A stretch of DNA of 64,000 nucleotides from Heterostelium album PN500 (Eukaryota; Evosea; Eumycetozoa; Acytosteliales; Acytosteliaceae). Shown here piece after piece: positions 2,677-61,118 of the stretch. The translations under genes and the position numbers were made by a program. Numbering within the stretch: position 1 is the stretch's first letter; every line of letters starts with the position of its first letter. The DNA lies in NCBI RefSeq assembly GCF_000004825.1, contig NW_008805072.1:186001-250000 (forward strand), read 5' to 3'. A model generated the notes under the pieces. It had not been told where the DNA came from and did no database searches. It was given only the letters and a program-made list of their open reading frames with translations.

Positions 2677-3533
2677 CTAGAATTATCCATATTTTGCTTA
2701 AAGTTAAGATCATCTAACTAAATGAAGGTAGTAATATTCACCGGTTTTATTTTTTTTTGAGAATCACTTTCATAGATCTTGACACAATAATTCTTAATTG
2801 AATCATTGGTGACCATTTTTTTTTTAATATATCTAATGTGGTATACATGTTTTATTTAAAGTGTTTGAAAGGTAGCTTATAGCTACAAAAGAGGCATTTA
2901 AAATTGGAGAAGGAGGGTTGTACCGCTCATTTGATCGTCTGTAATTTTGATTAATATTCCACCGGTCTACTTTCATGCTTGATTTATCCTTAAAAAGATG
3001 TATTTGATCCACGTCGTACGATTCTCCCATTCCCTAAAAGAATTGTTGTATGAACTTTACCATTTCTAGATTCTATATCTAGTCATTCTAACTATTAAAT
3101 TTCCATCGCCACATTCCACGATTTGATGGCTTCTATCTACGTTGACAAGGCGTATGATTAGCTATTAAATCATTAATGAGTGTGTCTATTCTCGATTGTT
3201 GATCGCTGCTATATCCATTAAGTACTGGTATCTGTTCACTCTCACCCATCTGAGAGCGAATACCAATGTGAATAGTATGGCATACTGATGGATACCATAT
3301 CCTCTATCCCGTCTGAGGTGTAAATGATTGATTGTTATCATTTGCCAGCGTAGGTTCGAAAGATATCTCAGACCATAATATCGATCTCGCCAGAAGCATC
3401 AAACAATTTTACACCAATCTACATGATTCTCAGCACACTATAAGAACCACTTTTAGCAGAATGTAAGATGACAGTGACGTTCTAAGATTTCTAAAAAATT
3501 TGTAAAAAATAAAAAAAAAAAGTGAAAAATTTA
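2677..3533. other. Interval with possible coding relics on the minus strand
   Basis: No intact gene. Two short minus-strand stretches look like old exons: 2833-3030 (65 codons, MGESYDVDQIHLF onward) and about 3080-3400, where a frame broken by stops contains SDQQSRIDTLINDLIANH. I recognise neither. They may belong to one dead gene or be chance. Confidence 0.3.
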
Positions 3534-3549
3534 CACGGGGTGTTAACTC
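3534..3549 (+). repeat. Terminal inverted repeat, left, of the P-like element
   Basis: 16 bp, a perfect inverted match to 8136-8151; similarity weakens just inside. Confidence 0.8.
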
Positions 3550-3622
3550 GAAAAAATTAGTATGTAAAAATGAAAAAAAGAGGTGAAAATAATAAAAATT
3601 AATTATTATGCAGCCAAATCTA

Positions 3623-6600
3623 TTATGTGGATTTATTTTTTGGAGGTCTACCTCTTTTCTTTGTTGTAGGGTCATCATTCACTGGAGTGTTAGTTGGTGT
3701 GGATTGACTATCTGAATTGCCATTATTTAGGGAGGTTGGCGTCGGGCTCTTTTGATATCGTTGTAGAAGTTGGGTATAAGATGTTTTTAATGTTTTGTTG
3801 ATACCGTCAAGCAAAGAACCAAAAAAGTTTGAATGCGTAGATTTAGTAATTCTGAACAGGATCTCCATCAATGCCAAGACATCCCCATTCGCAAAGTGAG
3901 GAGCAAAGTTGGTCAGCTGGAGGTCGGTAGTTAAGGCTTTCACTGAGTATCTTGAGTGTTTTTCGATATCTTTAATCAACTCTATGGTGTTGACAAAATA
4001 TGTCCTGGAAAAAAGATCGGCTGGTAGTGTGATATTGTGCAACATGTTGTTACCAAATAGTGTATTTGGGTCGAAATTGCTTGTTGCGTGGTAGAGAATA
4101 AATACTTGTGATTCACCAGTACCTATGATATCGACGAAATCCTTGACTAAATCACTCCAAGACTGAGCCTTATCAACCATGTCTGGTGAAAACTTAGTGT
4201 GACCTGGCATATAGTTGAGTTTATCATTTACTAATGGCTTGACTAATGATTGGAATAGCTTTTGATTGGTGATGTTGGCCAAACAGATATTGGTAATTTC
4301 CTGTGTTTTGAGATTGGTTTCATTGATACTCCTATACATTCCAGTAGTTTCAAAATCCAATAAAAGAATTTGGGGTTGATTAACATTATCAACAACAATT
4401 TTCCTCATCCAATTAATAATGAGCTGATCTACAACACTAAGGTTATGTTGAAAATTACCATATTGAAAAGAGAGTGGTGGGGTTTGATCTGGGATACTGT
4501 ATTTTGAAAGAAATGGTGAGATACATGATTGATCTGTGAATTGTTGTGTGAGTGGGTTGATCTGGTGCTTATTGAATTGATGATTGGTGAACGCATTGAC
4601 ATAAAGGTAGATCTTGTTACAATTGTTAATTTTGCATTGACGATGTCCCGACTTAAATACTGACTGGGTTGGATCCACCTTGCATGTTGATTCTCGTAGA
4701 GTGAACTTTCTTCTTGTGATCTTGTTGTTTCCAACGATAAGTTTCAACTTGAGCTTCTCATCCTCCTGGAGTGTGGAGACCAATGGCAACTCTTTTAGTT
4801 GTTGTTTACAGCGTTGCGATTGGTACAATTCAATTGTTTTTTGATTAAACTGAAGGCCATGTTGATTGTTGTAGCATTTTGAAACTTTCGTATCCTTGTA
4901 CTTATATATTGAGTCGGTAGAGAACTTCTTCATTAACTCAATAAAGGCTTTCTCGGCAACTTGACAAAACTCTTTTACATTGGGGTAAAGAACAAAAGAT
5001 CTGATAATAGAGAAGTAGTTCTCCACCACATTGGTCCCCAGGATTGATGTCATTTTCAAAAGATTTGGAAACTTGTTGAAAAGAGACTGGAGCGATTCGA
5101 TGCTTGTTTTGAGATGAGTTTTGAAAGCATCTGTGATAGGACCAGCTGTAGCTTCAAAATATTGATGTGCTTGGCTCAAATCTCTGACCTTTTCTTCAAT
5201 AGATTTAATTCTAGCAGTACCTTGAGGACCTACAACTTTAATCTCATTGATATTAAAGTTCTCGTATATAACTCGCATGAAATAGAGAAACTTGTACAGT
5301 TTAGCTTTTTCTGGTATCGATTTGAGCTTCTCCAAAAGAGCATCATTCATTAGATTCTTGACAGGTTTCCATTCCATTATGTCACTTGGGTGAATATCGG
5401 CAAAAGCAATTAAATTATTGAATCGAGAATCTTCCAAAAGGTCTAATAAATCATTGTTATTAATGATTTCGCTCGAATTCAGAATGATATCTTTTCCACT
5501 GATCAAAAAATTTCTTAAATTCTTTATCATATGTACTGGATCGAAAACTTGAACAAGATCGGGGTGAGTCTCTTTAAGCTTGGCCAATAACATTTGTCCC
5601 ATCCATCACTGCTGGTGAATGCAATATTGAAATCGGATTCTTTGGCAATCTTCATTACCATACTAATACATTGATGTGCTTGATCGACAGTAATTGAAGT
5701 AGTTGGAAATCTGGCAATTGGAACGCTGATGGTACCGTCTAAAGAGACATAGAAGAATTGTATTACCTTTTTGGCAAGTAAACCTGATATATTCTGTTGT
5801 GGAAGATGAATATAATCCCTGAAATTCTCTCGAGTGATAGGATGTTTGGCTAATCCATAAATTTGATCTTTCCTTTCATTAAAATATAGACCATGACTGA
5901 TTTCCATCTCGTCATATACCAGACCACCTATCTTCTGCTTTGGATCAGAACAAGAATTACTTAAAATAGAATAGTTGGTTTTGATATCTTCCTCATCCAA
6001 GTATATGCAAGTTGGTGCAGCATTGTAGTTTAATACAGAGATACCTGGAAGTTTCAAATTGATGGCATTGGGGTCTTGGGTTTCACCTCGAATGTAGTTG
6101 ATGACACCTTTTCCTTTTCCGTAAAACCTGAGTGAATGTGCGAAATCAAGCATCATATCGGACCACCGATGTCCTTTATTCTTTGCATTGATATATTGCA
6201 ATTGCTCCTTTGTAAACTTATATAAAAAACTCTCTACAAAATTGGGATTTTCATACAGAGTTTTCTCTAAAAGTTGAATCAGCTCGTCGCTTTTGCAAAT
6301 AGTGATTCGTTTTCGAATCTCTTCTGGATTAATCAGAGGATGATGGTCGAGTAGTCTGGATTGTCTTTCTCTGATACACTTCCTTAGCTTATCGCAATAA
6401 CAATGTTCCGCCACCTGACCACAGTAATAGTTGAAGTATCGATGGTAATATGACCCATTGTATTTGGTTCCACTAATATTGGAACCAAACTCCAATATTG
6501 TAAAACAAACATCAGAGGGCTCTATACCAGATTTCCACTTGCTGTTTTCCCTAGACATGGTGGTGAAGAGGAGTTTCTTGGAAATATTTGAATAGCTATC

Positions 6601-7833
6601 TGTTTGACGGTTTCTTCTCGGATCACTCCAAGAGGAATGAGCCATGTAGACTTTAATTCGTTTGATTTTCCAAAACTAAACAAATTGTTTATAGTTTGAA
6701 CAATTGGGTCACCCGATTTCCAAGTCCTATCTACTAGTAGCTTATCTCGTATAAAACCATCAAACGATTCTTTGTCTGCCATGTTATCAAACATCTGCAT
6801 ATTTGATTGGTGTCTGTTATGATAAAGCTCTTCAGTTTTGATGAGCTCGTTTAACTGATCATACTCTTTCAGGCATTCCTCGAGAGTCTTTTTGTTATTG
6901 ACAAGTTCAGACTCCAATAAACTACATTTCTTCTTGTATTCTTCTAGGGCTTGCTCATATTGTTCTATCTTCTCTATATGACGTTGAACTAGCTCCATAA
7001 TAACTGATTTTAGTCGATTGATCTCAACCTCGGCCAGGTTAAGCTTAGTCTGGAGCTCATTTACATTAGCCTCTGACTGGTCAAGCTTAGTCTGAAGTTC
7101 ATTGAGCTTAGTCTCTGACTGGTTGAGCTTAGTCTGGAGTTCATTTACATTAGCCTCTGACTGGTCAAGCTTAGTCTGAAGATCATTGACCTTATCTACA
7201 TTATTATTTACAAAAGATATTGAATTGATACTGATTTTAATTGGATTGTTGTTTTGTTGTGTTGATAATTGAGTTGAACTAAGAATAACTTCCTGACTTC
7301 TGCTATTATCGGATATAGTGATGTTATATAATGTACCACTAGTGGTATTATTTTTGGGAAGTGGGTCATCATGTGAGGAGATTGGTTCTACTATTGTAGA
7401 CAATTGTTGTTGTTTGTTTGCTTTTTGTTGGTGTTTACTTGTGCCTCTTAGTTTCTGTTGTTTCAAAGCAAGGCTGTTGATGAGTTGGTCACAAAGATTA
7501 GTTAATTTCAAACTGTCAATTTGGTCAATAGATTTTTTCTATAGAAAAGTAATTATTAGATTTACATTTTTTAAATTTTTTTGTTAACAAATGACCTACA
7601 ATACATTTAAAGAAAGATTTTGTACTTGGTATGACTAGGCTACTCGAAACCCATTGTCGATTGATATTAAACTTTTTTGAATAATATGTGAAGAGATTAT
7701 CATCTGAGTGTTTAAGTACTCGATTAACTATTTTAGATTGATCAGAATTGTCGTCTACTATTTCATATTCTAATGAAAATATTTGTTTAAGTAGATCCCA
7801 ATCATTTTTGCTCGGCTGAACATAGGGCTCCAT
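3623..7833 (-). CDS. Transposase with coiled coil, RNase H-like core, C2H2 finger, DEDDh exonuclease and AT-hook
   Basis: Read from 7833 downward: a short N-terminal exon (to about 7588; a GTAGGT...CTATAG intron of roughly 60 bp restores phase), a coiled coil of LQTKLDQSE-type repeats (about 7020-7200), then a catalytic core. Core signs are YVSLDG, TSSDG, FDPVHMIKNLRN (P/THAP9-like second-Asp motif, near 5545) and NVVENYFSIIRS (ENxF motif with candidate catalytic Glu, near 5000). A C2H2 finger (CKINNC...HQFNKH, about 4560-4630) follows. About 4380-3860 encodes a DnaQ-like DEDDh exonuclease with all three motifs: LLDFETTG, YHATSNFD and HFANGD. The tail KKRGRPPKNK is an AT-hook. The frame changes twice, at 6522-6645 and 5527-5602, both by the same sign; I see no convincing introns there, so these are single-base indels or frameshift sites. 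It cuts and pastes the element in the nucleus; the exonuclease role is unknown. Confidence 0.75.
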
Positions 7834-8135
7834 CTCTGATTGATAGTACTTTCATAAGAATAACTTCAAGCAAGTCCAATTGCGTGATATTCTTACTAAG
7901 TAATTCAAGCACAGTGAATCCTCACTTTAAAAAAGTTCGGGTCTGTACAAGAAGCTATTAATCGAGTGAAACAGTATGTTTAGTAGATCGAATGATTGAT
8001 AATCAAATAATAAATAGAAGAAAGAAAAAAAAAATTTAAATGATCACAAAAAATTGAAAAAAAGGAATTTCCTCTGAAAATTCGAGAATAATTCATATTT
8101 TGAAAAATATTCAACCCGACGCACAAATCACTATG

Positions 8136-8151
8136 GAGTTAACACCCCGTG
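8136..8151 (-). repeat. Terminal inverted repeat, right, of the P-like element
   Basis: Inverted copy of 3534-3549. Confidence 0.8.
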
Positions 8152-8197
8152 AAAATTAATGAATAAAAACGAGTGATGATTGCAGCAAAAGGCTTTA

Positions 8198-8231
8198 CAC
8201 CCAGTCACGTTTGCAAGAAATTTGCCTTCTC
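8198..8231 (+). repeat. Terminal inverted repeat, left, of the pogo-like element
   Basis: 34 bp, inverted match to 10343-10376 with one mismatch. Confidence 0.82.
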
Positions 8232-8321
8232 ATCTCTTGCAAAAAAAAATTCATTTTTGAACAAAATTTTATATGAAATTTTAAATATTTAAATTAATAT
8301 AAAATTATTTGTTTGTAGATT

Positions 8322-10075
8322 TTATTTAAATAAATTAAAGAAAGATTTAACCAAAGTTTTATCATTCGATTGTGCTACATTGGTATTGGTTGTAGTTGAG
8401 GTATTTTGGGAAACAATTTGAGGTTGTGATGTAGAAGATTGTACATTATTCAAAATGTTGTTGGTGGTATTATTGATTTGAAGGTTTGCTTGATACAAAG
8501 AAATTGTTGGTTCTTCGTCTAGTGTCTTTCTTTTCTTTTTAGATACATCATAGGTTATTTTGATAATATCCCTGTCAAAATTTGATTCAATTAATAGGGT
8601 TAATGAGGTGATTTAAAAAAAAGTTGAACATACTGTGTATCTTGGGAAGTTATTATGGCACCCTTGCGCTTTTTATCTCTCATTACTATAGCCCGTTCTT
8701 TTTGGGTCATGGCTTGAGCATTTGCCGGAACAATCTCTTTTTTTCCGGCTATAGCGATTTCCTTTGAGATAGACTTTTTCGGCTTTTTAAGAAATATTGG
8801 GTCGCAGTATTCGTGTGCCATCCAATTGAACAAACCAGACTTAATCCAAGACATTCTTATATTGGATGAGTTGAATGATGATGACCAAGAATGATAAGCC
8901 AACATTTGGTAGTGTTTATCGTTCACTTTAAACTTTGGATTGACCATTAACCCATCTCTGAGCAAATTCGATAGGTGTTGAGAGAATGACGAAAATAGGA
9001 CTAAATCCAAAGGCTGGAGAATGTGAGTCAGGTTTGATGGGAACTTCATTATGATAAGATTATTCTCATCACAAAGTTTTTGTTCGTCAAAGAAATAATT
9101 GGATATGTGATTGTCCACTAAAAGCAGCTTTTTATCTGTTTTCTTAAATTGTCCTAGAAGCCATTCGACATATTCTTTCTTTATCTCTTGCGTTACCTAT
9201 AATATATAATAATACAATGTATATTAATAATAGCAATAGACAACTTTGGTTCAAGTTATAAAAATTTGCCAACTTACATATCCTGACTCATTAGCAATAA
9301 TGACACCATAATTTGAATTTTGCATATGTTCCCATTTTGCTCGTTTAGGAATCTGGAGAACGTTATAGGGTGGTAGAGCATGACCAGATGCTGTTATTGT
9401 TCCAATCATTGTAAGTGTTGACTTTGGGATTGCTTGGGAAACCTAGGTTTGACTGTCTCAAATTTGTTTCCACGGTCAATAATGGCAACCTATATTTTTA
9501 TAACAATTAGCTAAATCTTTCGAAAAAAACTAATAAATAGAATAAAATAGAATATTAAATACCTTTTGATTCATTTTCGTGAATAAAACACCTTTCTCAT
9601 CAGAGTTTATCACATTCTTTGGTTGAATTTGGTTTTCTACTATCACTTTATGAATGGATGAAACCTTGAATATCGGCCTCTTTCTCCGCTTTTAATCTAG
9701 CTTCATCTTGAAACTTAACCTTTCTTAACTTTAAGATCGGATATTTTTGTTTCAGCTTTGTCCACCAGTCACGACCAGGGTGACGACTCATTGTATAGCC
9801 ATATTTGTCATATACCTTTCCGACCACCCAATTTAGAATATTCTCTTTCGTTATCGGAATATTCTTGGTATTTAATTCTTCTACCATCTTTATCATCTCT
9901 AATTCTTCTGCTTCGGTGAGATATCTACCTCTTGGCTTAAAGGAGAGGTTATTTTTTTTTTCTTGGATAGCTCACTTTCAGAAACTCCATACTTTTGAGA
10001 GGGAGCTCCTTGAGTAAAACCTGTATCGTTTTGAATTTCATTTATTGCTTCCATCAACCTCTCTTCTCTGCTCAT
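8322..10075 (-). pseudogene. pogo/Tigger-like transposase, recently broken
   Basis: Start MSREERLMEAINEIQND at 10075. A helix-turn-helix/CENP-B-type DNA-binding part follows (NILNWVVGKVYDKYG, GRDWWTKLKQKYP, about 9900-9700). The DDE domain contains LPPYNVLQIPKRAKWEH, the second-Asp motif LLLVDNHISNYFF (near 9120) and THILQPLDLVLF (near 9030). Small introns are visible near 9200-9280 and 8576-8635; the last exon ends in a Thr/Asn/Gln-rich tail (SKKKRKTLDEE, stop at 8322). It is damaged: the frame slips at an A10 run near 9955 and again near 9440. Otherwise it is well preserved, so inactivation was recent or the slips are assembly errors. Function in life: TA-targeted transposition. Confidence 0.75.
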
Positions 10076-10342
10076 TTGACTAATCCTCTGAGGTGTTACA
10101 CGTATGATATCGCTTAATTCTTTTGTATCTTCCTATTAAAAGTGCTATATTAGCACCATCTTTTCTAAATAATAACATAATTTTTAAATAATGTTAAACC
10201 CGACATACCGTTGCATTGATACATTCTATTTTAATAAAACTTTGTTTATTTTTATCTTAAAATCTACAGATATTAATAACTTAGCTTCAAAAAAAAAACA
10301 ATATAATTTTTTTAAAAATTTTCACAAATTTAGTTCAGAAAC

Positions 10343-10376
10343 GAGAAGGCAAATTTCTTGCAATCGTGACTGGGTG
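10343..10376 (-). repeat. Terminal inverted repeat, right, of the pogo-like element
   Basis: Inverted copy of 8198-8231. Confidence 0.82.
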
Positions 10377-10379
10377 TTA

Positions 10380-12604: not shown

Positions 12605-12795
12605 TAATCTTCTTCTTCTTTTGCCAGTTTATTGTGTGACAAAAACGAAATCCTCAGGTACTTCTATATTCTTGGTTGCTGGTTGTTTCCTATCTTCAAC
12701 AAAAGCTTGAATTGAACATTTATATGTCGATGGTTCGTGCACAGTTGTTGATGTAATCACACCATTCTAGGGAGTTTAGAGGAATATTGATTGTT
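12605..12795 (-). pseudogene. Dead copy of the upf2 3' end (UPF1-binding tail)
   Basis: The DNA aligns by eye with about 21430-21640 of the intact upf2 gene: shared blocks include gaaatcctcaggta, cttcaacaa.agcttgaatt and gtcgatggtt. Translated, it gives KNIEVPEDFVFVTQ against KTIEIPEDFAFVAQ in the real protein, but has internal stops and lost codons. Together with the surface-gene duplication it indicates that the duplicated block once included the end of upf2. Confidence 0.75.
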
Positions 12796-14172: not shown

Positions 14173-17100
14173 ATGATGAATACAACATTGTTTCGTTCTC
14201 TAATTGTATTGTTATTTTTATTTTTTAATTATCACATAGGTATGATAGATTTTATTACAGTATACATAAACTGTAGTGCATAACAAACATTACATTTATT
14301 AATATATTCATTCATATTGGAACTTACTATATATTTAGATATTGTAAATTCACAACCATCTTTAATATATTCATATTCTAGAACTATATTAGTTGGAAAG
14401 TATTGTCCTTTTGATCAGGTCAATAAGAGAGAGTATATCGATGGCTATGCCCTATTAAACTACACGAGTAAGTTGGTGGCTACCAACGAGGCTACAATAG
14501 ATGGTACCCCTGCTACAGCGGTAACCACCTATTTCAATCATAATTTTGCTGAACAAGTATTGTATATCAACATTGTTTCACCCATTTCATCAACTGGTAC
14601 AACCATCCTAAATAATAGTGTAATAGTAAATTTAAAAGATCCAAATAATTCATCACTTTGGCAAGTACCAATTGGAAATATATCATGTTATTGTATGTAT
14701 AAATTAAAGTAAAAGAAAAGAAAGTAAAAGAACAGTTTGGATGGAGTGTATTAATATTTAAATTAATTTAAAAGCATTTAGAGATCAACCATTAATATTA
14801 AAAAGTAATGGAATAATACAAGCATCAATGTTTGATGCAAGATTATCAATTGTTACATTTATAGTTGAATTTGGACAAGTTCCAACTGACAATATCGACT
14901 GTGTTGAGGATGGTGGACAATTTAATTGTATTTGTCATCCCTACGACTATGGGTACAAATTGTATCCTGTAAGAGGAAAGATATTTTTAAAGTGTTCCTT
15001 GGCACCATTGGCAAACACGTTTACGGGTTGGGACAATGCTGTCAATGTAACATTTTCAGACAAAGGAAGAGTCAATATTGGATCGGTCTCGGCAACAGTC
15101 GACTTCCCATTTATGGCCAATTGGAATTCCAGCACGACGGTGTTTAACAATGTTACTACCGCCGTAAAAAACACAACATGGATCGACATTCAATCACAGG
15201 TGAACCAATTTAGTGTCTATGCCAATGTGTCTGATTGGAACAGTCAGTTTATCGTGTACAAGGCCGACGGAGGTGTCATCCCATCGACTGGTGTCAATTA
15301 CTATGGTAACACGTATAAACCATTGTTGGCTGATGACAAGGGAAATGCCCTGATCCATTTTGCACTTCCACAGTCAATGACAGCGGCCAATGTACCTGCC
15401 ACATTGACAAGCACGTCGATTAGTACACTCAACAATGCGTCGATTCTAGCTACCAATTATACTCACTACCGATACCCCTATAATAACACTGCTACAAGTT
15501 CACACGTAGCGTTCGATGGTGCTAGATATGTGGTCACACCCATATGGAAGTCGACCGGTGCCGCCCCGTTCATCAAGGTGCAAGCCAATTCGCTGCTGAA
15601 TAACTTTGTGCAGACAGTGAAACAGCCATTCCCCTATGGATTAAAGAAGGGTATTCCCTCGATGGGCAAGTACGACTATGCGTTTGACCAACCCGTCCAT
15701 CCCAACTTTGTGTCCAACAAGCTGACCGTGTGGGGTCCACACAATGAGCGATTGGCCGAGGGAGAGACGAACTCTGGCAAGACAGGTACACCAAGTCAAA
15801 CGCCTTTGGTCACAGTCAGCTCATTCCGAAAGTTTACGTCGCACCAGACCGTGTTTGGTTTCAAGGTCACATATAATGACGGGTTTGGATTCCAAGGTGG
15901 ATACATTCCCTTTGGTCCCGAAAATGGCCTTTATATTCGAGCAAGCGATCACTCGTACACTAACAATTACGAAGTGGAGTTGAATATCACCCAGACAGAT
16001 TATGGTCGTCGTTTCCGATTCCACTTGTTGTCACTTGATGGCAAGACACAACGTCTCTACCAGCAAAACGATGTGGCCCAGATGTTTTTCCATCAACCCA
16101 TGGTGTTGAATGTCGTGCCGCCAACTGGTCTTCTCGAATTCTCCATCGATGAGGTTTCAGAGTTGTTTTGGTCACCACCAACTGTTGGTGTCACCCTCGG
16201 CCCGGCCAAATCTACCCTCTCTTTCAAGTTGGCAACCACCACCTACCTCCCAAACATAACGGATCGTCCTGCCGTGATGATCTACAAGCGTCACAAATCC
16301 AACGTCCACGACTTTGCACAATACTTTATGGGCAAGTATGAAGACGGATATTACAAGGTTGAGGTAACCATTGATCAGGGAAGTTTCCCAGGTCCAGCCG
16401 AATACTTTATCGCGTCGTCCAACACCAACATTACCAGCGAGGCACTCCGTTCCAACCTTCTTGTTGGAGACAATGCCATTCTCACTATTGTATGCCAAAA
16501 TACCGATGAAATGGGTCCCATTGTAGGATGCGTATCGCCACCCTCCTACTCGATCAATGTCACCTCGCCACAAGAGGAATCAGTGACCCTTCAATGGACC
16601 ATCAATATCCAAGATCGTCCAAGTGGCATTGCACTCGCCAACAGCTATGCTATCGTCAGTAGCAACATCGACCCAACCCCTCGTCGAGTCAGTCTTGTCC
16701 AAGTGTCTGGCGACGTATTTAGCGGTGTTTACAGCGCCACTCACTCTGCACGTGCTGGTGCCAGCTGTGAAATATTTAAATTGGATTTAGTATTGACCGA
16801 TTCACTCGGTAATGTAGCCACCTCCATTGCACTTGGTGATCTTGATGACAATCAAATCAACGTCGATCCATTCCATTACTTGCCCGATCATATAGGTCGA
16901 TACATATCAGTGTTGTATCCCACTGCAGTCGTCGACACTGACCCACCCGTTCTTGTCGACCTGTCATTCTTCACTGCTGTTCCTGTAGACGTGTCATTGT
17001 ATAATCGTACGGTTGAATTCCAATTTACATTGTATGATCAAGTCAGTGGAGTATCGTTGGCATCTACCCCATACCTCTACGTCACTGGATTGAATGGTGA

Positions 17101-18148
17101 ATCTGCCAGTTGTGCGGGTGTCGTGATCTCCATGACAAACGACTCTCTGTTGGCCAACGCTGGCAATGTCACCTACCGATGCAATGTTGAACTTCCCTAT
17201 GGCTTTGGTTATCAGACCTCGCCAGTCGTATCCATCTATGGATACAGTGACAACAGTCGAAACTTTGGATCGCAAACATCGGCCGATCTCCTTGCCAAGG
17301 GATTCGTATCGTCATTTGCCGTCGTCATGAATAACATCCAGCCAATCATTTTGTCGACCAGCGGTATCCCCACCATCACAGCCGACGCCAAACCCATTAC
17401 CATCCGTGGACGTAGACTTATCCCCCTGGATTCTTACACATTCACTAAGGTAAATTTGTTTGTCAATGATAATCCCACAGCTGTCCAGACCGCCACTCCA
17501 TCGTTTTACTCGCATACAGTTATCACTTGTTCGCTCAATGGCAATCTATTCCAACCAACTGACAATTTAAAGATCCAAATCACCTATACATACAGTCCAG
17601 GTGGTGGTCAAGTCTTTACAAGAATCTCCAACTTTTGGAATTTAACCTATGCTCCAGCCATTCCATACAATCCTATACCAGAACCTCCTGCCGGTGCCAT
17701 TGAACCATTCAACTTTTACACACCATCCGCTGAATGTCCAGTACCTCTTGTTCTTCCACCTGACCAATGTACAGTTGTATTCCCGTCTCAAGAGACTGAC
17801 GATTCTTCATCTTCGTCTTCATCTTCATCTTCATCTTCGTCATCCTCTAATTCAGATTCTTCATCTTCGTCATCCTCCTCTAATTCAACTTCCTCTTCCT
17901 CCTCTGACTCTGGAGGTGTCACGCCACCAGGTGATGACGATGATGACAGTGAGGGTGGCTTATCAGCTGGTGCTATTGGTGGTATTGCGGCTGGAGCATT
18001 TGTATTGGCAGCTTTACTTGCACTTGCCATTGTATTTGCTAGAAGAAGATCTAAACGAAAGTCACCACCAGACCAAGAAATGGAACTTGAACAAAAGACT
18101 GTACCAATGTTTGTAGGAGGTAAAGTTAATAATATTGATGAATTTTAA
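14173..18148 (+). CDS. Surface glycoprotein, type I membrane, copy 2 (complete)
   Basis: Model: join(14173..14239, 14339..14692, 14775..18148), 1264 residues, all phases fit (donors GTATGA and GTATGT, acceptors TTTAG and AAAAG). Residues 1-20 form a signal peptide (MMNTTLFRSLIVLLFLFF). About 1180 extracellular residues follow, with many Asn-X-Ser/Thr sites, Cys-bearing segments such as CVEDGGQFNCICHPYDYGY, DTDPPVLVDL-type beta domains and an IPT/TIG-like domain. Then come a poly-Ser/Asp stalk, one membrane helix (GGIAAGAFVLAALLALAIVF) and a short basic tail. It is the intact paralogue of the truncated gene at the window start. Likely role: cell-cell adhesion or recognition, as for ComC/Tgr relatives (inference). 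C-ending codons are commoner than in neighbours. Confidence 0.88.
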
Positions 18149-18558
18149 AGACATCTTAAGAGATCTTCAACAAAACCAACCAAGTTCTAAAAATAAAACT
18201 ACTACATGTATTTAATTTTAAAACAAACACTACTCACATGTGTGTTGATCCATGGATTGTCCCAGGACAGGGCAATGTTCATCCATTGATGTTGATTGTT
18301 GGATCTGATGATTGTCGTACAATTCCAAATAATTTTAGTAATGGTAGTGTGTGTCAATCCTCGTAGAGGGTGATGATAATGTGATTGATTCAGTTATCAA
18401 ATCAAACAAATACTACTACTCTGATTCTGGAGGAGAGGAATGAACTGCTTAATTAGTAGTTCCAAAATATAGGATAAGAATTCATCAATATAAACAAAAG
18501 TTAAATCAATCAATCAACTAGTTAACATTACCACCACATTTTAAGATATTTTGAAATC
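18149..18558. repeat. 3' flank of copy 2, duplicated at 2268-2676
   Basis: Nearly identical to the flank of copy 1; similarity ends at about 18558, where this copy continues into unrelated sequence. Confidence 0.9.
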
Positions 18559-21365: not shown

Positions 21366-24300
21366 TTATGTTGTATTGAGCTGTGCTAATTTCAAAATTA
21401 GTTTCTTATTCTCCTGTACGTTTCTTTCTTCCTCCTCTTTTGCCAGCTTGATCTGTGCTACAAAAGCGAAATCCTCAGGTATTTCGATGGTCTTGGCAGC
21501 AGGTTTGTTTCCTCTCTTCAACAACAGCTTGAATTGTGCATTACCAGTCGATGGTTGTGGTGGTGTTGCAGATGTTGTTGGTGCAGATGGTGCTGCTGCT
21601 GCAACAACTGCTGTTGGTGTACTCACGCCGTTCAAGGGTGGGGAAAACACCGATGGCAACTCAATGTCGTTGGCAAGACTTGTTGTAGACATAAGATGAG
21701 GCAAATTGAGCTTAATGTTTTGCTTCTCAGACTTTCTAGAGTCGGCACTCTCTTGCATCGTCTTTTTAAACTCACGCAAAAACTCTAGATCCTCCTCGGT
21801 ATCCTCTTGTACCTTTCTCTGATTCATATAGAACAGCTCCTCCTCTTCGGCCACTTGCTGATCGGTTTGTTGTTCAACCTCTTTGCTGACTGTCGCTCTG
21901 ATGTCTTTTCTTCTGGACGACTGGTCGGTGTCAGTAGAGCTACTCTCAGCGCTGCTATCATTCTCGCTGGGAACCTTGATTGTTGTATTCTTTGAACACT
22001 CTTCATTTGCCTCCTCCCAAGTCTTGAATATCTTGATGTCAGGCACTATCTGCAGACAATCGGACAACATGAATTCCAACTCCAACGAGAGAACCTTACT
22101 GAGGGTATATCTCTGAAGGAAAAACAAATAAGGTTTCAAATGACTGGTAATCTCACGGTCTGAGAAACAATCCTTACAAGTTATAATCAATGTACAAATC
22201 TAAAGAAATTGAAATCCAACAACCTGTCTGTTAGTTATTCTGTTTTAAAAGATTTGATTGGATGGATTTACTTACAAATCTAATACGGAATGTATCATTA
22301 ATTGGATCGAAATCATCGAGATTTGGTTTGTATCTATTCTTTAGGAATTCTTTTTCACGGTCTTGATTCACTGGGAAAAGATGCATCGTTGAGTAACCAT
22401 ACTCCAACGCGCTTTTGAGCAGTGTGAATACGTGGTAGGAATCGAGTAGACACGAGTTGTAGAGCTCACCGAATAATGTTACATGCATGATACGCTTTTG
22501 ATTCAGGTTGAAATCGTTGCGTTCAAAACCAATGGTTATCTCTTCGAGTAGCTGCCAGATGACCGAGCGCACAAACGATGGGTAGTGACGTCGCAGTCGG
22601 TAGAGTATGTCGGCAACCAAGTAGATATTACCGAAACGACCTTTGTTGACGGCGAGCAGATACTTGGCGAGGTAAGGCTGACACTCGGGCCACGGCAACT
22701 GTAGAATCTTATCAAAGACACGCTTCTGAGTGTCCTCACTGAGATACTTGAATATCAGATACTTGGTGAACTGTCGGATTGGATCGACCTTCTTCTTCTT
22801 GACGAGCAGAGGACGACACGACAGGTAAGCATTCTCAATCAGTGATTCCTGGCGTTGCTCCATCACCTTGGCATTCTTGTTTCTAATCAAGATATCCAAC
22901 ATGTTCTTCAATCGGAATTGAGTCTCCGGTTGTCTATAGAGGAAACGTCCACAAACCTCCAGCAACGTACAGGCAATGTCGATGTTGTGATGAGTAAAGT
23001 CATCGAAACACAGCTTCAAATAGTTGAAAGCGGTAGAACTTGGCAACACTTTGAACTTTATCAACTCACCAATGAAAGTGATATCTTTAACCTTGATGGT
23101 AAGATGTACTTGCTCCTTCTTCTCAATGAGATTTGTCAACTCTTCTTCAATCTAAATAATAAAGTATTAATAAAAAGCGTAACCATTAATAACTAGATAA
23201 AAATAACATACAGTTTGTGTAAGTGAAGTTACAAACTCCTTTTGTTGTGAAGTTTGATTAAGAGATGCAACGAATCTGGCATAATATGGAATTTGATCTT
23301 GTCTCGATTGAATCAAAACATTGATCAGGTTCTTCTTTTTCGATGACTTTAGATTCAACTTTAAAAAGTCGAGCACACAATGATCCACCGACGATGTCTT
23401 GAGTCCCGATGATTTAAAGCTTTGAATGATTTCCTCATAGATCTTATTTGTCTTTGATTTGATTGCTTTCTTTTCACTCTCACTCATTTGTTTCTCTTTC
23501 TCCTGTTTCTCTTTTTCCTGTTTCTCTTTATCTTCATCTGTTGTCGATGCTGTAGCTGGTTGAACTGTTGGTGAAGTAGATTGCTTCTTCTCTTCCTTTG
23601 GAAGTGGAACTAAAACTTCATAGAATTGACGTTGCTCCTCGTTTTCCCATGGAGAATCGAATGCTTCGAGTTGTTCAGACTTTGTCTCTGTTGTTTCTGT
23701 CTCCAACTTGGTGGTGTAATCGTTGGTGGGCAGTGGTGCACCAATGAAATCGGCATACGATGTAACGTTAGTGATCAACTTCTCATAGTTTCTTCTGAGT
23801 TGTTCGTAGCTCGAAGTGACAGTCTCTGGTACTTCACCCTTCATCTGCATAATACTCTTCATCTCCTTCTCCTTGTCACGCAACAACTGTTGTTCACGCT
23901 GAATAAACTCACCAAGCTTTGTATAGTAGTTTTGAATCAACTCTTTTGTATTCGACTGCTCGTCCGCACTGAGAATATTCGAGTAGATATCTGGTAGATT
24001 TGGATTCTAAATCAAAGTTACTCTAATTAGCTACTTCCACCCTTTCTTCTTCTTCTTCTTCTTGATGTTCTACTTAACCTCTACTTACTCTATCTTTACT
24101 CATTCCAATTAGTTGTGTACATGGTCTTAGGAAGTTCAGCAATACAACTAGTACTGGATATCCACATTCTTTATCTTGTTCAAATGTCGATTGACTTGTC
24201 TGCAACATATCAAAGTTTAAGTAGAACAGATGGATAGTTAGTTAAAAGCTAAAGATTGAACAAACTGTTTGCTATTACCATTTTACTGATTAACTTGTAG

Positions 24301-58639: not shown

Positions 58640-59556
58640 TTATAAACCAATTTTAAAAAAAAAAGCTGGCAGGGCGTCTATCCGGTTTGCAGATACGGTC
58701 GAAGACAGGAGCTCTCCGACAATCCTATTCATGGCAGCTGGGAATGCCTTTCTGGCAACACGTTTGTTACTGGCAAGGAAACAGGCAGCACCTTTCAGGA
58801 TCGAAAGGAACACGGGTCTACCTACACCTGTACGTGATTCAGATCTTGAAAGCACCACACCGAGACCGTTAAGTGTTTCCAATGGTCTGACCGCAGAGTG
58901 TACACCACTTGGGTCTAGGTGGAAGACTGACAGACCGTCAGATCCCTCATTACGAACAACAAATGCGGAGGTGTCTTGTTCGTCGGTGTACAAGGCAACA
59001 GCAGCGATGAATCTAGAAGTATGGAAATAAACAAGAATATCATTCAAACCATCGACGTTAGAACAGGATTGAATCAAAAATTGCTTACCTTGGATAGCAG
59101 AGAGTGCATCAACAGGATCGTTGACAATTGGCTCATCTTGTTCGATGTCCATTCCACCATCATGATCCTCATCGCACTGGGAGTCAGCAGCAACACGGGT
59201 GTTAGCAGCAATACGAGTGGTGGCAGTAGCACGAGTGGTGGAAGCAACACGAGCGGTATCGTTGGCTGATTGAGATCCTCTTAGAGTGGTGTATTCCAAT
59301 CCTTTCTTTATAAGTTTGCTGATGAAGGCTGGGCATCTGGCAACTTCTTTGTTTGAACCATTTGGGATTGGAGTAAAGTTGTTGTGAATCGATGGTGCTT
59401 CATATCCAATCTTCATCTTTGGTGGATATCTCAACTTTCTGGTACTCTTGAGGCTAAAGGTGACCCACTCGGTAGTGCCATTGAAATTTGTCTCACCATC
59501 CTTCGAGAAACTCAAACGATATGCTCTGGAGATGGCAAATTTTTTGATGTTGCTAG
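58640..59556 (-). pseudogene. Unknown protein gene, downstream part, cut by an inverted-repeat element
   Basis: An open frame of about 305 codons reading from 59556. Visible: SRAYRLSFSKDGETNFNGT, an Ala/Arg/Thr repeat (TTRATATTRIAANTRVAA), an acidic patch (DEDHDGGMDIEQDE), then a balanced domain with QGKQFLIQSCSNVDGL, FIAAVALYTDEQDTSAF and ACFLASNKRVARKAFP. GC content is clearly above neighbours. The last residues (AFFFKIGL) are encoded by a T-run, so the true 3' end may also be lost. I recognise no family. Coding in the same direction resumes beyond the element at 61117, suggesting one gene was split. Confidence 0.6.
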
Positions 59557-59795
59557 TACAGCAAAAATCTATGAAACCCGGACAGAGGTGTCAAAATATC
59601 AAACAGTAATACATTTATTTGTTATAGAAACTAATAAATATATTCTAAGATAGATCTTTGTAAATGATTAATAATTAAAAAGAAATTGAATCTTTTATCA
59701 TTTTAAAAAAAAATAAAAAAAATAAAAGATAAAATTAATTTGTGCAATATTTCTGAAGTAATAAAATATTTTTTATTATAGTACTTTTAAATTTA
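59557..59795 (+). repeat. Left arm of long terminal inverted repeat
   Basis: About 240 bp inverted match to 60885-61118 with scattered mismatches and small gaps; outermost 100 bp are the best conserved. Confidence 0.85.
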
Positions 59796-61116
59796 TTTTG
59801 AAATATTTAATTATATTATATATAAGAATGATACAAAGTAAAATGTTAACAGAAAGATAAAAGATTTGTGGAATACTTGATTTGGATTACTGAACAGCAC
59901 AAGAGGTTATTGGTTCAAAATACAATTCTAATTTTCAACAGTTTCAAGACTAAAGAAAAACTAAGCAAAAACAAACTCATCACTGAACACAAATACTATA
60001 TGTATAAAAAGAATAAATATTTAAAAGATTACAATTATATTTAAAATACAATTTAAAATTTTTTTTAAAAATCAATTATATCATTAAAAAAAAAAAGGAT
60101 AACAATACATTTTTAAAAAGATAAATCAATAACATTATTAGAAGAATAATAAAGGATTAAGGAATTACTTTCAGAAATAATACAAAAAAAAACCTTTTAG
60201 ACTCTTCTTCATATTCAAAATGTAAAGGTTTTTAACTGATTTTACATAAACAAGGATATTGTTTTTTTTAGAAAAGTAATTTAACAGATGAAACGAAAAT
60301 AAAACAAGGAGAGTATAGTATAAAGAAAGTTTATTCTTTAAAGGAGTTCCCGATTATAGAACAACTAATATTCTATTATTAAGTTGAAAGTGGTAGATTC
60401 AAATTCAATATTTTCTCTCATTAATTTAATATCGAACTGGATACTTAGACAATCTATCTTAAGCTCTAGATTCCCAGATTTTTTAGAAATTTTAGAGTAT
60501 GATATATATCGACGAATAAATAATATTGTTTAACTAATTTTAGTATATTCCACAACTGTACAAGACATCTCACTTGTCATCAATATTCTAAAACTCATTA
60601 TTATTTTTTACTTAAAATGCATTCTTAACTAAATTTGATAAATAAACAAACCAGTCAGGACCTGAATGTTTTTTAAAATTCTTGGGTATTCTTGAGATAA
60701 ATATATATACTAGATGCCATTCATTCTAAACTCAATAGAGCTCTTAAATAATGTTAATAGTGTTGATATGAAATGACACCGGAGTACTGCCAATCACTAT
60801 ATGAATCAATACCAAACAGATTGAATCAAGTAATCCTCAACCAAGGTTATTGGACATCCTATTAATTGTTTTCTTTTAAATCAATTTAAATGTATATAAA
60901 TAAAAAATATTTTATCACTTCAGAAATATTGCACAGTTAATTTTAGTTTTTTATTTTTTTTATTTTTTTTTAAAATGGTAAATATTTCAATTTTTTTCTA
61001 ATAATTAATCTTTAACAAAGATCTATCTTAGAATATATTTATTAGTTTCTATAACAAATAAATGTATTACTGTTTGATATTTTGAAACCTCTGTCCGGTT
61101 TCATAGATTTTTGCTG
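59559..61116. mobile_element. MITE-like non-autonomous element with TA target duplication
   Basis: A 1558-bp unit with about 240-bp inverted arms starting cagcaaaaatctatgaaacc. TA flanks both ends (59557-59558 and 61117-61118), the signature of Tc1/mariner-type insertion. The interior (59800-60880) has no coding frame, so a transposase would have to come from elsewhere. It interrupts a coding region on the minus strand. Confidence 0.78.
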
Positions 61117-61118
61117 TA
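60885..61118 (-). repeat. Right arm of long terminal inverted repeat
   Basis: Inverted match of 59557-59795. Confidence 0.85.

Follow-up and report, generated by a model that had tools for sequence, protein, structure and literature searches.

A P-type transposon of Heterostelium album whose transposase is predicted to end in a DEDDh exonuclease

The authors who described the Dada transposons proposed that the exonuclease of these elements processes the cleaved 3' ends exposed in transposition (PMC3706591), and a role at DNA ends similar to 3'-end trimming was suggested for the exonuclease of KolobokD (PMC9587614), in the passages available from the two papers. For the P superfamily, a transposon with a DEDDh nuclease was credited to Kapitonov in one sentence of Bao & Jurka (2013; PMC3627910), where a piggyBac transposon with such a nuclease was likewise credited to Kapitonov. 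The source cited there, a meeting report (PMC3520738), mentions in its available text a talk by Kapitonov on transposons with acquired host proteins, and this text contains neither 'DEDD' nor 'piggyBac'. Here we analysed a 64,000-nucleotide stretch of the Heterostelium album PN500 genome (contig NW_008805072.1, positions 186,001 to 250,000; hereafter the window), in which a transposon occupies positions 3534..8151. Our reading, to which we assign a probability of about 0.6, is that this element is a cut-and-paste transposon of the P superfamily whose transposase ends in a DEDDh exonuclease, and that this exonuclease trims the donor-side 3' tails.

An earlier note on this DNA, made from the sequence, knew of no described P-type transposase with this fusion. 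That view needs amending, since the pairing is already present in the sentence of Bao & Jurka (PMC3627910). The sentence gives neither a host nor a sequence, and leaves unstated whether the nuclease is fused or separate; the Heterostelium element may or may not belong to the same family. Among the literature matches listed, which lie outside Repbase Reports and most subscription journals, the available text held no detailed account of a DEDDh-bearing P element. Among the passages that deal with DEDDh together with transposase, a DEDDh nuclease in P was named only by PMC3627910.

Extent of the element and its exonuclease domain

The element measured 4,618 bp between its terminal inverted repeats (TIRs), with the coding strand on the minus strand. 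A perfect 16-bp repeat formed both ends, CACGGGGTGTTAACTC at 3534..3549 (plus strand, gene 3' end) and its exact inverted match at 8136..8151 (minus strand, gene 5' end). With up to 3 mismatches allowed, the two exact copies were the only matches to this word in the window, compared with a mean expectation of 0.16, and at least two matches were obtained in 2 of 100 shuffles. When the end regions, which were picked after the repeat had been seen, were resampled 500 times under a first-order Markov model, the longest inverted word in common was 14 nt and none reached 16. A repeat listing gave arms of 22 nt at 95% identity (3528-3549 and 8136-8157). We placed the ends at CA because the ends of P elements begin with CA and the next 8 bases agree, which leaves AAAATTTA (3526..3533) and AAAATTAA (8152..8159), neither with an assigned strand, as a candidate 8-bp target-site duplication. 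The two flanks were identical at 7 of 8 bases, a level equalled by a fraction of 0.00085 of 20,000 random pairs of nearby 8-mers. P elements make target-site duplications of 8 bp, as hAT elements also do.

Within these bounds, a 660-codon open frame on the minus strand (3623..5605) was predicted from the frame listing and motif positions to encode the latter half of the transposase core, a C2H2-like motif, a DEDDh exonuclease and a basic tail; when the element was shuffled 300 times by mononucleotide, no open run exceeded 146 codons. The exonuclease domain corresponds to residues 415-583 of this frame (3857..4363, minus strand). A search with the Pfam RNase_T profile (PF00929), which the earlier note had proposed as a check, matched profile positions 2-164 of 164 with the domain alone (36.0 bits against a cut-off of 24, E 1.3e-8) and gave 33.5 bits (E 7.8e-8) with the whole frame. 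The domain also matched phrog_192 of PHROGs, a DNA polymerase exonuclease subunit (E 7.4e-7). The sole match among solved structures, the PolC exonuclease 2p1j, was weak (E 0.03 for the domain and 0.13 for the whole frame), and its alignment covered the domain, keeping LDFETTG, NFD and HxAxxD in register.

By the usual definitions of the ExoI, ExoII and ExoIII motifs in DEDDh exonucleases, all five active-site residues D, E, D, H and D were present. The ExoI motif LLDFETTG has its D at 4357 and its E at 4351, the ExoII motif YHATSNFD has its D at 4072, and the ExoIII motif HFANGD has its H at 3898 and its D at 3883. The earlier recognition of these three DnaQ-type motifs was thus borne out, including their order. 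Judged from these profiles and motifs, the C-terminus of the transposase is a complete, in-frame DEDDh domain with predicted 3'-5' exonuclease activity.

The gene's stop codon lies 73 bases inside the left TIR. One TIR pair with a near-perfect duplication around it places the exonuclease within a single element, and this TIR-bounded extent is the strongest argument for the exonuclease being part of the element.

Two accessory motifs proposed in the earlier note held up in part. The C2H2 finger has the residue spacing C-x4-C-x12-H-x4-H, read by eye at 4565..4636 (minus strand), and no Pfam match. The basic tail contains the AT-hook-like KKRGRPPK (3638..3661, minus strand), and its score for PF02178 was 14.3 bits, under the cut-off of 17.4.

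The P-type core

Of the 27 stop-to-stop frames of at least 50 aa around the finding, four on the minus strand form the gene (7525-7851, 6522-7538, 5527-6675 and 3623-5605). The transposase-exonuclease gene does lie in the span of 3623-7833 first described in the earlier note; the element itself is larger, and the gene probably contains an intron and has two frame changes. The probable first exon (7600..7833, minus strand) encodes 78 aa from an ATG, with one cysteine, and had no Pfam match up to E 10. It is followed by a probable 61-nt phase-0 intron (7539..7599, minus strand; GTAGGT...TATAG), which was read from the sequence by eye. The next open frame (6522..7538, minus strand, from the frame listing) has a heptad-repeat coiled coil, whose DNA at 7012-7194 consists of copied heptads with a repeat spacing of 21 and 42 nt. 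All coiled-coil Pfam matches in the gene frames were under their cut-offs.

For the P-type core, the first half lay in the open frame at 5527..6675 (minus strand), which matched TNP-like_RNaseH_N (PF21787) with 40.5 bits against a cut-off of 24.6 (E 4.3e-10). A P-element helix-turn-helix match (PF12017) lay where expected, before the RNase H half, and scored 12.8 bits (E 0.17), under its cut-off of 23. The D, D, DxxH, E signature was ordered as YDEM (5913), SSDG (5607), DPVH (5542) and NVVENYF (5023), and spans a frame change. YDEM, which we take to be D1 from the motifs of P and THAP9, has its proposed catalytic codon at 5913-5911, and SSDG has the proposed D2 codon at 5607-5605, both on the minus strand. 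From the D codon of the DxxH motif at 5542 to the proposed catalytic E (codon 5023-5021) there are 173 residues (5021..5542, minus strand). The DxxH and VENxFxxIR motifs share the 660-codon frame with the exonuclease: FDPVHMIKNLRN lies at 5545-5510 and NVVENYFSIIRS at 5032-4997, both on the minus strand. The earlier claim of P/THAP9-like core motifs therefore stood, with both motifs in one minus-strand frame and PF21787 upstream. The profile search suggested alongside it was answered in part, by the P-type RNase H half; the four gene frames had no THAP match up to E 1. In the sense of its catalytic core, as predicted from these profiles and motifs, the element is a member of the P superfamily of cut-and-paste DNA transposons.

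Several weaker matches in the gene frames were set aside: phrog_5920, of unknown function (E 0.0013, frame 5527-6675), as unexplained; CHDNT, APG12 and Med4 in Pfam, as under threshold; and Mediator subunits and other unrelated chains in PDB, as chance (E 0.12 or worse). In NCBIfam, the 660-aa frame was unmatched, and the other frame queried gave one chance-level match (E 0.084).

A KolobokD element misread as a P element would also carry a DEDDh exonuclease, and Kolobok elements have the C/DxxH motif in common with this core. TTAA, the Kolobok target, is present inside both TIRs, and the protozoan Kolobok1 lineage, in the portion of its description available, likewise has no zinc fingers in its core. 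The ends and flanks speak against this identification: the termini are 5'-CA and not 5'-RR, and AAAATTTA and AAAATTAA are not TTAA. If an internal TTAA were the target, the TIR left would be 3 bp long and a 22-bp palindromic target would be required. No cysteine occurs between DxxH and E, one occurs in the 44 residues preceding D2, and, by eye, there are none elsewhere between D1 and D2, whereas the accessible text of PMC9587614 places zinc fingers in both intervals. We rejected the KolobokD identity on its ends, flanks and missing fingers and consider it highly improbable.

Role of the exonuclease and condition of the copy

We return to the proposal of a P-type transposase with an end-trimming exonuclease. 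It rests on the PF21787 match, the full-length RNase_T match, the enclosure of core and exonuclease by one TIR pair and the 7/8-bp duplication, as well as on a DxxH-to-E spacing near those of P and THAP9, the similar GC content of the codon positions, and the published precedents of DEDDh in P and of Dada. P elements leave 17-nt 3' tails, and the likeliest role of the exonuclease, we infer, is trimming the 3' DNA ends that arise from excision. In such a mechanism, the coiled coil would assemble the transposase into a multimer, and cuts by the core at the TIRs would leave the donor DNA with single-stranded 3' ends. If long 3' tails arise here as well, the exonuclease, tethered at the break within the same protein, would then trim them on the donor side, which would ease end-joining and prevent the broken site from being used again. 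The 3'-OH of the transposon itself, required for joining to the target, would have to be spared by the exonuclease. End-joining was described as a major repair pathway following P excision in the accessible part of PMC3878927.

The exonuclease may be a genuine part of the element and act elsewhere, on RNA such as silencing RNAs or in general host repair rather than at transposition ends. RNase_T and DEDDh families hold RNases as well as DNases. The relatives of the KolobokD exonuclease include both TREX and ERI1 according to the available text of PMC9587614, and the weakness of the PolC match (E 0.03) means that the substrate is not readable from the sequence. A DNA-end substrate is nevertheless the simpler assumption for a domain covalently fused to a DNA-cutting core, and the authors on Dada and KolobokD, in the passages available, suggested such substrates for these elements' exonucleases. 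We regard an RNA or host-repair role as unlikely.

The proposal of a P-type transposase with an end-trimming exonuclease must also be set against a number of results that weaken it. The AlphaFold2 single-sequence fold of the exonuclease alone had a pLDDT of 36.1 and supports nothing. The reading frame shifts within 5527-5605, between D2 and the DxxH motif, with no intron evident by eye, and a second shift within 6522-6675 is either an intron or a break. The core frames had no Pfam match to the GTP-binding insertion expected between DxxH and E, for which the 173-residue spacing is suitable, or to the RNase H C-terminal half, and a PDB sequence search up to E 10 matched no P-element chain. The D1-D2 spacing of 102 is longer than the 73 of Drosophila P and the 70 of THAP9, which makes the element a divergent member. 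Its exact ends rest on one copy, and up to 6 more AT-rich outer bases are possible. No second copy was found in the collections searched, so that conservation of the fusion and selection on the exonuclease are hypothetical. Finally, an enzyme that degrades DNA in the 3'-5' direction could also attack the reactive 3' end of the transposon itself and destroy it.

Further copies were sought among viral, bacterial, archaeal and phage records; these collections include no dictyostelid genomes, so that the misses say little on dictyostelids. Related-locus searches of viral contigs gave 2 pattern stretches each for the 660-aa and 382-aa frames, and the search of genome contigs with the 660-aa frame gave 39, with no confirmed relatives in any of them. 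The 660-aa frame had no tblastn match in phages, and motif scans of viral and genome contigs gave 0 matches. The 64-kb window contained no second copy at the DNA or protein level (best other protein match E 0.26).

Given the two frame shifts, the full enzyme cannot come from this copy unless a shift is a missed intron or an assembly error, and the element is a non-intact copy. That condition bears on two further explanations. If one or a few copies had taken up a host exonuclease domain by chance, the fusion would have no role in transposition; the broken frames and the lack of another copy in the collections searched are in keeping with such a capture. Yet a single frame of 660 codons joins the exonuclease to the second core half and ends close to the left TIR, the active-site residues of the exonuclease are present, the core and exonuclease parts have similar GC content at each of the three codon positions, and the combination of P element and DEDDh nuclease has already been credited to Kapitonov in the sentence cited from PMC3627910. 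Chance capture therefore appears to us improbable, slightly more so than an RNA or host-repair role. Domestication of a transposase as a host gene would account for the survival of long open frames, but the clear TIRs, the near-perfect duplication and the broken frames fit a decaying transposon, and we rejected domestication on the TIRs and frame breaks as having very little probability.

Taken together, the earlier interpretation is partly supported: profiles, motifs, TIRs and the duplication all favour a predicted P-type core in frame with a DEDDh exonuclease. A stronger version, that a dictyostelid P lineage has fixed a C-terminal DEDDh exonuclease which trims the long 3' tails of the core's cuts at the donor site and so steers gap repair, is put forward tentatively, as the odds are somewhat against it. 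If it is true, an end-processing enzyme comes with the element itself, and the P superfamily would have its first worked-out case in the fixed exonuclease.

Genomic surroundings and comparison with described transposons

A second DNA transposon lies 45 bp from the P-like element (8197-10377), with 41-nt inverted repeats that match at 93% and a DDE_1 domain at 8600-9196 (E 2.9e-8); it is presumably of the pogo type. The transposon cluster is flanked on both sides by a direct duplication of 2.7 kb (1-2677 and 15879-18558, 98.2% identical), of which the copy at 15879-18558 spans the 3' portion of a large DUF7034/DUF7035 gene. Two stretches with 81% identity (12608-12735 and 21427-21556) repeat part of the frame 21366-22199, near a MIF4G gene in a transposon-rich region. 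Inverted repeats of about 240 bp with 92% identity (59557-59798 and 60878-61118) are possibly another foldback-type element; a 316-aa frame near them (58640-59590) had no Pfam family above the cut-off. The window is AT-rich and contains FNIP repeats (E 2.2e-113), which are linked with dictyostelids.

The element may add a P-type transposon to the social amoebae. A review whose text is available in part (PMC5633606) states that the transposases of Dictyostelium discoideum DNA transposons resemble no known ones; TDD-4 and TDD-5 carry Gypsy-integrase-like transposases according to the accessible text of PMC2836005, so this statement is not the whole picture.

As far as the partial accounts of them go, Drosophila P transposase, human THAP9 and Galileo have in common with the Heterostelium protein an RNase H core, the DxxH motif, the catalytic E and a coiled coil preceding the core. 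The DxxH-to-E distance found here is near the 192 of Drosophila P transposase and the 199 of human THAP9, both computed from residue numbers in the available part of PMC8230255. The candidate 8-bp duplication would be a further feature in common with Drosophila P. The Heterostelium protein differs from all three in that no THAP domain was found and in its added C-terminal finger-like motif, exonuclease and basic tail.

KolobokD, in the portion of PMC9587614 available, is likewise a DDE/D transposon with a DEDDh exonuclease and a C/DxxH motif. Kolobok elements have duplications of TTAA and 5'-RR termini, and KolobokD has in addition zinc fingers in its core; none of these was seen here. The Dada elements of Laccaria and Ectocarpus similarly have a DnaQ-like 3'-5' exonuclease inside the transposase; according to the accessible text of PMC3706591, theirs is of the DEDDy type and sits as an insertion within the catalytic core, after the second D and before DxxH, whereas the one described here is of the DEDDh type and C-terminal. 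The P element credited to Kapitonov shows the same pairing of a P-type transposon with a DEDDh nuclease in its single published sentence (PMC3627910). The Heterostelium element is a tangible P-type example bounded by TIRs, in which the predicted exonuclease is in frame with part of the core, and it gives that one-line report a counterpart open to cloning and testing. With Dada, KolobokD, and the P and piggyBac elements as credited to Kapitonov, a self-carried end-processing nuclease is a recurring theme among transposons.

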